Assembly (NCBI RefSeq): GCF_013752535.1
Contig: NZ_CP058348.1
Location: 2,666,001-2,730,000 of the forward strand
Origin: Bdellovibrio sp. KM01
GTDB taxonomy: Bacteria > Bdellovibrionota > Bdellovibrionia > Bdellovibrionales > Bdellovibrionaceae
Length of the DNA: 64,000 nucleotides
Direction: 5' to 3'
The notes beneath the pieces are model-generated. The model did not search any database and was not told the DNA's origin. It saw only the letters and a list, made by a program, of their open reading frames with translations. Shown piece after piece: positions 15,841-45,123 of the stretch (within the stretch, counting starts at the first letter, position 1; the number at the start of each line of letters is the position of its first letter). Both the position numbers and the translations under genes were made by a program.

Positions 15841-16596
15841 ATGAATACGATCACTACAATGAAAAAATATTTGATGGTTACGATGTTGGTTGCAGGTGCG
15901 GCGCTTATGACGGCGTGTGGATCATCTGGTGCACAATCGACAGATTTGGCTAGCCGTGGTGTTATTTCTTCTGTGTCTGAGTCGGATTCTAAGGCTCTTG
16001 CTGTTTGCAACTCTACTTCGGGTACAAATTTGGCGGTTCGTCAAATGGCTTATACGGAAGGTAACTCTTACCGTATGGATCTTGTTTGGTTGAAGCTTAC
16101 AGCTCTGCCAACTGATTTTGCTTCTGGTACTTCTTATATCGCTTTTTGGAAATGGTTGGCTAATTCAAATGGCTCTACTTATTTGGATTCTTCTGCGGTT
16201 CCGGTGGCTCTTTATGATTCTCAAACTAAAAAATTTCTTACGAACTGGGGTACTTCCATCAAATGGACTGATATCTCTGCGATGGCTCTTTCGATGGGCT
16301 ACTCTTCGCCTACTTCCTTCTTTGGTCGCGTGATTATTCTTGCGAACCTTAAAGATACGAATGGTGAGTATGATGCTTTGAAAGTTTCGGTTTACAACTC
16401 TTCGACTAATAAATCCGTGAATGAGATCAATGGACTTCTGCCACTGTTCTCTGCAAACCCAAATGCTTATGCGGTTGAATCATCTGGCGCTGCTCGCGCT
16501 GGTGTATTGCAACAGCTTCACCCGTTCTATTCTTACAGAAGCACCGGATACACGACTTCTCAGTTCCAAAGCATGGCACAAAACTTTTGCTTCTAA
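15841..16596 (+). CDS. Predicted lipoprotein of unknown function
   Basis: 251 residues from ATG 15841, which has AGGGGG seven bases upstream; the frame opens further upstream without a better signal. MNTITTMKKYLMVTMLVAGAALMTAC is a lipoprotein signal with lipobox MTAC. The mature part is rich in Ser, Thr, Trp and Tyr (for example SYIAFWKWLANSNGSTYLDS) and looks all-beta. No domain is recognised. Codon use (many TCT, GCT, CTT) differs from neighbouring genes, suggesting either high expression or a different history. Monocistronic between the palindromic element and a terminator. Confidence 0.75.
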   Translation: MNTITTMKKYLMVTMLVAGAALMTACGSSGAQSTDLASRGVISSVSESDSKALAVCNSTSGTNLAVRQMAYTEGNSYRMDLVWLKLTALPTDFASGTSYIAFWKWLANSNGSTYLDSSAVPVALYDSQTKKFLTNWGTSIKWTDISAMALSMGYSSPTSFFGRVIILANLKDTNGEYDALKVSVYNSSTNKSVNEINGLLPLFSANPNAYAVESSGAARAGVLQQLHPFYSYRSTGYTTSQFQSMAQNFCF

Positions 16597-16624
16597 GTCG
16601 GAAGCACTCCGACAGTGTCGGAGT
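16597..16624. repeat. Two mutually exclusive small hairpins after a lipoprotein gene
   Basis: Immediately after the stop codon, GTCGGA (16597-16602) can pair with TCCGAC (16608-16613). Alternatively ACTCCGACA (16606-16614) pairs perfectly with TGTCGGAGT (16616-16624) around a single base. The second form is essentially a 19-base palindrome. Confidence 0.55.
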
Positions 16625-16646
16625 AAATTGAAATCACCCCCAAAAA

Positions 16647-23003: not shown

Positions 23004-23999
23004 ATGATGAAACTGACTGTGATCCCTGGTGATGGTATTGGTCCCGAAATTATGACCCAAGTAATCCGTGTTCTAAAACACGTGCATGCCCCCTTCGAAT
23101 ATGAAGAGCATCAAGCCGGTGAGATCGCCCTGGCAAAACTTGGCGACCTTCTTCCTCAAAACACAGTTGATTCCATCAACAAAACTCGCCTGGCAATCAA
23201 AGGCCCAACGACAACTCCGGTGGGTGGTGGTCACAAATCTATCAACGTTACGATGAGACAGAAATTCGATCTTTACGCCAACGTACGCCCTGTTCGCTCT
23301 CTTCCGGGAGTTCAGTGCGTTTGTTCTGACGTAAATTTGACGATTGTGCGCGAAAACACCGAAGACCTTTATGCTGGTATCGAGCGCATGGTTGATGAAA
23401 ATACGGCCGAGTCTATCAAACGTATCACTCGTCGTGGATCTGAAAGAATCGCTCGCTATGCTTATGACTTGGCTCAAAAAACAGGTCGCAAACAAGTCGC
23501 CATCGTGCACAAAGCAAACATCATGAAAATGTCTGATGGTTTGTTCCTTAAAGTCGCGCAAGAAGTTGGCTGGCAGTATCCAAATATCGCAACGAAAGAC
23601 GTTATCGTAGATAACGCCTGTATGCAGCTGGTAACTCGCCCGCAACAATTCGACGTGATCGTTACCGAAAACTTGTACGGTGATATCTTATCTGATTTGT
23701 GCGCAGGCCTTGTCGGTGGCTTAGGTGTTGTACCGGGCGCAAACATCGGTGAAAAAGCTGCGATCTTTGAAGCTGTTCACGGCTCTGCTCCTGATATCGC
23801 AGGCCAAAACAAAGCCAACCCAACAGCGCTTTTGCAATCTGCAGTGATGATGCTTCAACACATTGGTGAGCACGGCAAGGCAGACTCTATCATGAAAGCT
23901 TTGATTGCAGCATTGTCTGATATCAACGCTCGTACAGGTGACCTGGGTGGTAAAGGGACAACTCAGTCCTTTACTGATGCAATCATTCAAAAACTGTAG
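23004..23999 (+). CDS. NAD-type isocitrate dehydrogenase (isocitrate/isopropylmalate dehydrogenase family)
   Basis: 331 residues from ATG 23004 (MMKLTVIPGDGIGPEIM). The family signatures are present: substrate loop YANVRPVRSLPG, VRENTEDLYAGIE (the NTED motif favours isocitrate over isopropylmalate), metal site NLYGDILSDLCAGLVGGLG and the NAD-side EAVHGSAPDIAGQNKANPTA. The His-Gly-Ser-Ala-Pro-Asp-Ile stretch with neutral residues after it suggests NAD rather than NADP. The enzyme makes 2-oxoglutarate in the TCA cycle. Homoisocitrate dehydrogenase is a close alternative. It is followed directly by an array of hairpin repeats. Confidence 0.88.
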   Translation: MMKLTVIPGDGIGPEIMTQVIRVLKHVHAPFEYEEHQAGEIALAKLGDLLPQNTVDSINKTRLAIKGPTTTPVGGGHKSINVTMRQKFDLYANVRPVRSLPGVQCVCSDVNLTIVRENTEDLYAGIERMVDENTAESIKRITRRGSERIARYAYDLAQKTGRKQVAIVHKANIMKMSDGLFLKVAQEVGWQYPNIATKDVIVDNACMQLVTRPQQFDVIVTENLYGDILSDLCAGLVGGLGVVPGANIGEKAAIFEAVHGSAPDIAGQNKANPTALLQSAVMMLQHIGEHGKADSIMKALIAALSDINARTGDLGGKGTTQSFTDAIIQKL

Positions 24000-24008
24000 T
24001 CGCCCCCT

Positions 24009-24166
24009 ACTCCAACGAAGTTGGAGTGCAGACCAGCCCAACGAAGTTGGAGTGCAGACCAGCCCAACGAAGTTGGAGTGCAGACCAGCCCAACGAAGTT
24101 GGAGTGCAGACCAGCCCGACGAAGTTGGAGTGCAGACCAGCCCGACGAAGTCGGAGCGTAAACCAG
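24009..24166. repeat. Six tandem 26-bp repeats, each with a small hairpin
   Basis: The unit CCCAACGAAGTTGGAGTGCA plus GACCAG repeats at a strict 26-base period (ACGAAG at 24015, 24041, 24067, 24093, 24119, 24145). Each unit contains CCAAC-GAA-GTTGG. In unit 5 the left arm becomes CCGAC (a G-U pair), and in unit 6 both arms change (CCGAC-GAA-GTCGG), so pairing is kept. It starts nine bases after the isocitrate dehydrogenase stop and ends at the terminator stem. There are no spacers, so it is not CRISPR. Confidence 0.9.
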
Positions 24167-24168
24167 CC

Positions 24169-24206
24169 AGCCTCTTAAGGAAAAACTTAAGAGGCCTTTT
24201 TTTTTA
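24169..24206 (+). terminator. Rho-independent terminator
   Basis: Perfect stem GCCTCTTAAG / CTTAAGAGGC with loop GAAAAA and then ten T. It ends the isocitrate dehydrogenase transcript after the hairpin array. Confidence 0.92.
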
Positions 24207-35240: not shown

Positions 35241-35771
35241 ATGCAAAGATCGCTTTTCGAGGACCCCAGATTGCAATCGACTCAAGCCCACGGCGGCACG
35301 CTGTTTAAAAAAGCGCGTTATCGTTGCCGTCGACCTTTGAGCACCACAAAACCACTTCACGTGGTTCTGCGATCAAGCCAAGCCAAGGGTTCACTCAGTT
35401 TTCGAAAGTTTAAAAACTGGAAGCAGGTCGAATATCTGTGCCGACAATTCGCCCGAAAATATAAAATTAAAATCGAAGCCTTCGCGAACGGCGGCAATCA
35501 CCTGCACCTCACCCTCCGGCTGCACAGCAAGGACAGCTACACCCCATTCATCAGATCCCTGACCGGAGCTATCGCGCTTAAATTTACCGGCGCAAACAGA
35601 CATCAAAAGAACGCACAAAAATTCTGGGACTTCCGCCCCTTCACCGCCGTGCTCGAAAAAGCCAAGCAAGTACTGAAAAATTATGTATCGCTGGATTTAC
35701 TAAGAGATCTGCAAGTCATCCCCAGAATCGGGATCCTAACCCACCAAGAATGGCCCCCGCCGCCCCAATAA
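35241..35771 (+). CDS. REP-associated tyrosine transposase (RAYT)/IS200-like protein
   Basis: 176 residues from ATG 35241; a TTG at 35205 adds 12. The HUH motif of Y1 transposases is present as GGNHLHLTLRL (about residue 91), preceded by FARKYKIKIEAFA. The helix with the catalytic Tyr is probably AKQVLKNYVSLDLL (about residue 150). KFWDFRPF matches the W..RPF of RAYT proteins. There are no flanking IS ends and no partner gene, which fits a domesticated single-copy RAYT acting on palindromic repeats. The cruciform element at 15401 is a possible substrate type. Confidence 0.78.
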   Translation: MQRSLFEDPRLQSTQAHGGTLFKKARYRCRRPLSTTKPLHVVLRSSQAKGSLSFRKFKNWKQVEYLCRQFARKYKIKIEAFANGGNHLHLTLRLHSKDSYTPFIRSLTGAIALKFTGANRHQKNAQKFWDFRPFTAVLEKAKQVLKNYVSLDLLRDLQVIPRIGILTHQEWPPPPQ

Positions 35772-44578: not shown

Positions 44579-44607
44579 ATTTTCGATTCTCGATTTTTGA
44601 TTCTCGA

Positions 44608-45123
44608 TTATCTGCGGCCGGATTTGATTTTCACTTGAAGTTTAGAGATCAAGTGAACAGCCATTTTCTCTTGCACGCGGCACATTTTAAGTTCGTCGCG
44701 GCGGTAAGATCTTTGAGAAGGAGTCAAAGTTCCAGTCTCAAGTTCCATTTCGTAATCAAGTTTAGAAGAACGGATGCCTTCTAGCTCTTTAGTTTGTGTC
44801 TTGAAAAGTTTCGTTACGCCAGACAATGGAGCAACTTCGATCCACTCTTCTTTACCACGGTACCAGCTCACCATACGCAAGAAGCGAGCTTTATTTTTTG
44901 CCAAAGTGAATTTTGGGAAACCTGTGTCTGGAAGCTCAAGGATGTTTTCAACATCATCAAGGTTCAAGTCATCTTCTTCACCTTCACCAAGAAGGTTGTC
45001 AGAAAGTCCCGCTAATACTGCAGCTTCTGATTCTTCGTCTACGTCGATATCGAATGCTGACGTTTTTTTGGTATTCTTCTCATCAAGGTCAGAATCCAAA
45101 TCAGAATCAATTTCTTCAGCCAT
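44608..45123 (-). CDS. Cytoplasmic acidic/basic protein of unknown function
   Basis: 171 residues from ATG 45123 (AGGCAAT upstream; ATG 45144 adds seven). Residues 1-75 are very acidic (EEIDSDLDSDLDEKNTKK) and probably disordered; the rest is basic and helical (KNKARFLRMVSWYRGKEEWI, SSKLDYEMELETGTLTPSQR). The ending KLQVKIKSGRR is strongly basic. No family recognised. The bipolar charge suggests a protein-binding or nucleic-acid-linked role, but this is inference. Confidence 0.68.
   Translation of the reverse strand: MAEEIDSDLDSDLDEKNTKKTSAFDIDVDEESEAAVLAGLSDNLLGEGEEDDLNLDDVENILELPDTGFPKFTLAKNKARFLRMVSWYRGKEEWIEVAPLSGVTKLFKTQTKELEGIRSSKLDYEMELETGTLTPSQRSYRRDELKMCRVQEKMAVHLISKLQVKIKSGRR

Follow-up and report, generated by a model that had tools for sequence, protein, structure and literature searches.

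Hairpins of REP sequences at the 3′ ends of enterobacterial mRNAs are protective. In those parts of the published accounts on which we draw here, REPs carry a conserved, unpaired head, GTAG (GTRG) or CGTC, immediately before the palindrome on its 5′ side, RAYT genes are flanked by REPs of the GTAG types in inverted orientation, and the CGTC families are said to be without a dedicated transposase; most REP dimers are said to be arranged head-to-head or tail-to-tail (PMC2817692, PMC3733652). BrickBuilt of Porphyromonas gingivalis is portrayed, in the portion of its description used here, as an array with inverted-repeat ends that occurs at 19 sites (PMC4596501).

Here we describe an array of six tandem units within a window of 64,000 nucleotides from Bdellovibrio sp. 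KM01 (contig NZ_CP058348.1, positions 2,666,001 to 2,730,000). Coordinates are positions in the window unless a locus number (L) precedes them. With a probability of roughly three in four, we take the array to be the local tandem amplification of one REP-like intergenic palindrome of ~31 nt that is proper to this Bdellovibrio-type genus. Literature searches, at the level of listings and abstract openings and outside subscription papers and preprints, brought up no mention of the repeat in Bdellovibrio, which is weak evidence of absence.

Six tandem units behind the isocitrate dehydrogenase gene

The gene upstream of the array (23004-23999, plus strand) is isocitrate dehydrogenase-like (icd) by its best NCBIfam models, NF006529 with 479.6 bits and TIGR00175 with 408 bits, both of which score just under their curated cut-offs of 510 and 432.4, respectively. 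Between this gene and a terminator-like site, base-by-base reading revealed six 26-bp units at 24012-24167, starting at 24012, 24038, 24064, 24090, 24116 and 24142. Tandem Repeats Finder reported 24012-24168 with a period of 26, 6.0 copies and 96% matches, and the period-26 identity amounts to 125 of 130 positions. A terminator-like hairpin with a T run follows on the plus strand (24170-24204), and near-identical sequence is present in G012, a relative without the array; sites like the one at 24170-24195 with its T run arise no less often in shuffled sequence. An earlier, sequence-only reading had described six 26-base units ahead of this terminator-like site; the position is borne out, and the letters and pairing states that it gave were confirmed by the base-by-base reading. 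Elsewhere in the window, a 14-bp tandem repeat of 2.2 copies was seen at 44579-44609.

All six units, each on the plus strand, share the pattern CCRAC-GAA-GTYGG. Units 1-4 (unit 1 at 24012-24037, units 2-4 at 24038-24115) read CCAAC-GAA-GTTGG with an A-U pair at the variable stem position; this pair is G-U in unit 5 (24116-24141, CCGAC-GAA-GTTGG) and G-C in unit 6 (24142-24167, CCGAC-GAA-GTCGG). The tail of unit 6 deviates as well (GGAGCGTAAACC), the variant form being GCGTAAACCAGC. The leader CTACT (24007-24011, plus strand), which is the 5′ outer stem of a complete element, occurs before unit 1 only and brings its stem to 9 contiguous pairs, and units 2-6, preceded by CCAGC, are truncated 26-bp copies with 5 pairs each. 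As RNA, unit 1 has a predicted energy of -10.4 kcal/mol, compared with -5.4 in unit 2, -5.1 in unit 5 and -9.2 in unit 6. The predicted minimum-energy fold of the whole array differs from a row of six separate hairpins. A search of the window with CCAACGAAGTTGG at no more than two mismatches gave seven matches, six of them in the array, against a mean of 1.84 and a maximum of 6 in shuffled sequences.

Among the curated covariance models of Rfam the array had no match at gathering score, and the two sub-threshold matches at E≤1 (20.6 and 16.9 bits) were far below their cut-offs; the array was assigned to no known RNA family.

A dispersed element of ~31 nt

Unit 1 together with its leader is one copy of a dispersed element of ~31 nt (CTACTCCRRCNNNGYYGGAGTGYARACCAGC), complete with a 9-bp stem, a GAA loop and the tail GCAGACCAGC; the dispersed copies have this leader as their conserved 5′ end. 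In the genome of the strain itself (G000, searched as one contig of 3.96 Mb), CCRACGAAGTYGGAG occurs beyond the array four times exactly and three times with one mismatch, and ACTCCNACNAAGTNGGAGT exactly at eight complete places, namely unit 1 and seven other single copies. At no more than two mismatches, the latter pattern gave 30 matches, opposite-strand echoes included, compared to 2 for a reversed-pattern control. A gapless alignment of 14 copies found by the palindrome pattern has CTACTCC..GGAGTG in common and a looser tail. From these 14 copies we built a covariance model (R1), leaving out L024 and L026 as likely chance matches and units 2-6 of the array (L029-L032 and the rest).

The R1 search of the own genome returned 20 sites at E≤1e-4. 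Its top-scoring place was unit 1 with 44.8 bits, itself one of the 14 model sequences. A second, single copy in the window at 16596-16626 on the minus strand (hairpin 16606-16624; 36.4 bits, E 1.6e-7) is likewise one of the 14. This second copy sits between genes that a crude gene caller predicts to be convergent. In the relative G020, ACTCC on the 5′ side is preceded by CT or TT in 70 of 84 copies. With GAA as the loop sequence in 42 of the 84, one strand of the element is preferred.

Distribution and turnover in the genus

R1 found its best match at E≤1.1e-5 in 21 of the 23 other genomes of the genus; the two exceptions are G017, with a best E of only 0.99, and G004, with no R1 match. Matches per genome at E≤1 ranged from 0 to 146 in the genus, opposite-strand echoes and chance matches included, with 101 R1 matches in G020 and 36 strong ones in G018. 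Outside the genus, 8 of 15 genomes had R1 matches, all of them weak (best 1.7e-4). An origin from phages or plasmids was rejected, as searches gave no match in phages or plasmids, nor, with an exact pattern, in viral contigs.

For 18 copies of the own genome, the orthologous sites were read in G012, G022 and G011; a similar hairpin was present at 7 of the 18 in G012, at 7 in G022 and at 4 in G011. For these counts a hairpin needed 7 of 8 stem pairs together with CT/AG in set positions, by which decayed copies such as that at the pyrE site of G012 were scored absent, and terminator hairpins were dropped (L114 in G012 and G011, L129 in G011). Many other orthologous sites are, by eye, ~20-35 nt shorter with matching flanks. 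Presence and absence at these 18 sites in three relatives is the behaviour of a mobile element. No target duplication was visible by eye in the orthologous-site alignments, in several of which the flanks are too diverged.

With the crude gene caller, 76 of the 84 non-overlapping G020 copies lie outside called genes and 8 within called frames. The 76 copies comprise 31 that run along both neighbours, 25 that run against them, 10 between convergent and 10 between divergent genes; reference gaps of at least 50 bases in the same G020 stretches were co-directional in 271, divergent in 92 and convergent in 60 cases. In G000, 20 of 22 sites (the last two of the 22 with E near 0.002) are located between co-directional genes, 12 with the direction of transcription and 8 against it. 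An orientation-specific RNA element was rejected on the grounds of these numbers, since neither 31 versus 25 nor 12 versus 8 is a bias. Own-genome copies often flank translation or chaperone genes, by names read from translations (rpsB-tsf, groES-groEL, rplT, tuf, rpsA). Codon adaptation beside G020 copies was 0.371 versus 0.329 at other co-directional gaps (p=0.011), a comparison that is partly circular because the codon reference set consists of the genes beside own-genome copies. Enrichment at highly expressed genes was discarded as a candidate, the p of 2e-6 from an uncontrolled comparison giving way to this weak signal once similar gaps were compared.

The only gap that G000 and the examined G020 copies have in common by both flanks is groES-groEL. 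The copy in this gap (L356 17646-17676, L128 1501-1531) is found in G020 and the own genome and is absent from G012, G022 and G011, and the sharing reflects either reuse of the site or parallel loss. Next to msrA (L122 1501-1531), the insertion seems to have cut the upstream gene short at its 3′ end when compared to three relatives. One G020 copy (L370 1501-1531) lies within a predicted reading frame and is apparently translated (SPSEAGVQT). Downstream of rpsA (L133 and orthologs), the gap has a single copy in both G000 and G011, and G012 and G022 have two copies each.

The icd array in relatives and arrays elsewhere

A search for icd gave matches in 22 of 24 genomes. The 3′ end was readable in 19 other genomes of the genus (L253, which ends within the gene, and L254, a short partial match, were excluded), and the array was present in none of the 19. 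The nearest relative, G012 (90% identity), has a near-identical terminator, with CTACTC-AATTTGA-CTAGCCC where the array would be; this stretch is perhaps a decayed copy of the element. From these alignments the array does not appear to be a conserved regulator of icd, and this candidate was rejected because the array is missing from relatives.

A pattern for the tandem design gave 29 matches, spread over 7 of 24 genomes and five of them being the icd array, versus 0 for a reversed control. In G018, a CTACT leader with four 26-bp units after it stands behind another gene, presumably htpX; the later units are truncated, the stem is GGC/GCC, and by eye the array is placed after the gene end and before a terminator-like hairpin. 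G020 has three truncated dimers with 26- or 27-bp spacing, and most of its model-found pairs are whole elements 29-35 nt apart. Neighbours within 150 bp are direct in 11 of 12 pairs in 800 kb of G020. Since the G018 array and the truncated dimers of G020 repeat the design, the truncated array is a recurrent product of the element, and it arose separately in G018.

Pairing and covariation

The alignment of 87 R1 matches from 800 kb of G020 is paired in 98.7% of 696 stem cells and contains two-sided changes at 5 of 8 stem pairs, 57 cells in total. None of 500 shuffles reached the paired percentage or the number of two-sided cells, and slid registers were only 16-49% paired; the alignment was fitted to R1, which derives from palindrome-pattern copies, and is biased towards pairing to that extent. 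Independent support comes from compensated differences at orthologous sites. Beside rlmN, G011 and G000 share their flanks and differ in three stem pairs, all of them compensated, and stems are swapped between GGC/GCC and GAC/GTC before rplI and behind rpsA; decayed or mismatched stems also occur at orthologous sites. The hairpin is maintained across the repeat family, and maintenance at the level of RNA is indistinguishable from that of DNA. Consensus folding is about equal for both strands, with -7.8 and -7.7 kcal/mol as DNA and -12.8 and -13.7 kcal/mol as RNA. Template-switch correction of quasi-palindromes can likewise restore pairing.

The pair that varies in the icd array is G-C in 70, A-U in 12 and G-U in 4 of the 87 G020 matches. 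Since the G-C of unit 6 is the commoner state in the family, the A-U units would be derived and subsequently duplicated, and the array would record a single two-step change rather than six events. The case is a warning that compensatory changes within one tandem array count as a single event.

These results alter the picture drawn by the sequence-only reading, which had taken the compensatory changes as a sign that the structure is kept. This is true of the family as a whole, with its 98.7% pairing, and is not supported within the array, where one event would have been duplicated into units 1-4. Selection on the RNA specifically, which it had proposed, is not supported either, with copies in either orientation, two strands that fold about equally and a template switch that could also restore pairing; a hairpin selected in the array is at odds with an array that weakens it, the outer stem being lost in units 2-6. 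The comparison of repeat number and pairing in relatives, which it had called for, left the icd array missing in all 19 and pairing kept in the dispersed copies. Nor is a function bound to the icd transcript supported, since none of the 19 readable relatives has the array, not even the nearest, with 90% identity.

Transposase genes

Y1_Tnp is matched 12 times in the own genome, and Y1_Tnp and element counts correlate over 24 genomes (Spearman 0.64, p 0.0008; no phylogenetic correction, element counts including opposite-strand and chance matches). One of 32 Y1_Tnp loci examined, among the 79 matches listed, holds an element, ~1.3 kb away. With frames placed on open frames, no flanking copies were found at 30 of the 32 loci or at the window gene; L188 and L194 were without a frame, and the frames of L174 (380 aa) and L198 (442 aa) may be wrong. 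Membership in the RAYT-linked REPs was rejected, since the Y1_Tnp loci examined are not flanked by copies. The Y1_Tnp (PF01797) match in the window is located at 35421-35687 on the plus strand and is likewise not flanked by element copies. G018 has one Y1_Tnp gene and 36 strong element matches.

Origin of the array

The element is dispersed, mostly intergenic, found in either orientation, gained and lost at orthologous sites with its pairing kept, and sometimes arranged head-to-tail. The amplification that we favour would have begun when one copy reached the 3′ region of icd. Replication slippage may then have joined the tail end (..CAGC) to the inner stem (CCRAC..), skipping CTACT and thereby generating 26-bp truncated units. 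The hairpin would presumably be transcribed together with icd, any effect on mRNA ends being a putative by-product; protection of the mRNA by the array is possible. Counting against the amplification reading, no mobilising enzyme was found and no target duplication was seen by eye, the codon-adaptation excess and the translation and chaperone neighbours would fit a retained function, and three two-sided stem changes separate G000 from G011 at the rlmN site. For the spread of single copies, a trans-acting transposase that recognises a single-stranded DNA hairpin is our leading guess, a tentative one at rather less than even odds.

The hairpins might instead be selected as RNA, as putative stabilisers of mRNA 3′ ends or intercistronic regions or as processing sites, in which case the amplification behind icd would provide better protection. 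Such a role would be in line with the strong conservation of pairing, the co-directional genes, often for translation or chaperones, on either side of 20 of 22 own-genome sites, the modest excess in codon adaptation, and the position of both the icd and the G018 array after a gene end and ahead of a terminator-like hairpin. We nevertheless consider it unlikely, because orientation is random (31 versus 25) though the tail is asymmetric, because gain and loss are rapid, with only one gap common to G000 and the copies examined in G020, and because units 2-5 form weaker hairpins than the single element in an array that no readable relative possesses. It is also improbable that we are dealing with a true REP, which the genome's own tyrosine (Y1) transposases would move in the manner of RAYTs. 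The palindrome has no GTAG on its 5′ side, neighbours are direct in 11 of 12 cases, unlike REP dimers, and elements occur at only 1 of 32 examined Y1_Tnp loci with no flanking copies; the 12 Y1_Tnp matches and the correlation of 0.64 over 24 genomes argue for such a link, but G018 combines a single Y1_Tnp gene with 36 strong matches. A plain minisatellite, grown from unrelated sequence behind icd and unconnected to the dispersed hairpins, would have the period and purity typical of slippage arrays, yet leader, stem, loop and tail are common to unit 1 and the dispersed copies by exact pattern, independently of the model, and the leader-plus-26-bp design recurs in G018, which makes this origin highly improbable.

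Under local amplification of a dispersed palindrome, what seemed a single-locus regulatory story behind icd becomes one of a family, a small palindromic repeat with a covarying stem and fast turnover in the genus. The element yields many natural pairs with and without an insertion, core operons such as groES-groEL, rpsB-tsf and rplT among them, for studying effects on expression, and it offers a clean case for studying the spread of REP-like DNA that has no transposase linked to it. A wider and rather doubtful proposal is that genus-specific minimal mobile hairpins (~31 nt with a stem that covaries, a loop that is mostly GAA and a tail on one side, and neither a REP head nor a linked transposase) have spread through the genomes of predatory bacteria and repeatedly expand at one junction into 26-bp arrays in 3′ untranslated regions.

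Comparison with known repeat systems

As far as the parts of the REP accounts used here go, the element resembles REPs as a palindrome of 20-40 bp, mostly intergenic, in many copies whose counts vary widely between related species, with a short unpaired tail and heterogeneous stems (PMC2817692, PMC3733652). In size and placement the agreement is close, as the element is ~31 nt long and dispersed, and 76 of the 84 copies examined in G020 avoid called genes. In other respects it departs from REPs: there is no GTAG or CGTC 5′ of the palindrome, GTAG instead following the stem on its 3′ side in 28 of 84 G020 copies; 1 of 32 Y1_Tnp loci has a match, 1.3 kb off, and none is flanked; pairs are direct in 11 of 12 cases, so that neighbours lie head-to-tail, and truncated 26-bp arrays recur. 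Compared to enterobacterial REPs that protect mRNA, the Bdellovibrio palindromes are likewise situated behind genes, are presumably transcribed and could block 3′ exonucleases, whereas their position is not conserved and they are known here from sequence alone. With BrickBuilt, a comparable tandem repeat that is part of a small mobile element, going by the same portion of its description, the icd array shares a short tandem repeat (23 nt in BrickBuilt), a leader and a tail, and intergenic sites within one species; the Bdellovibrio repeats differ in being mostly single palindromes of ~31 nt, among which arrays are rare (PMC4596501).
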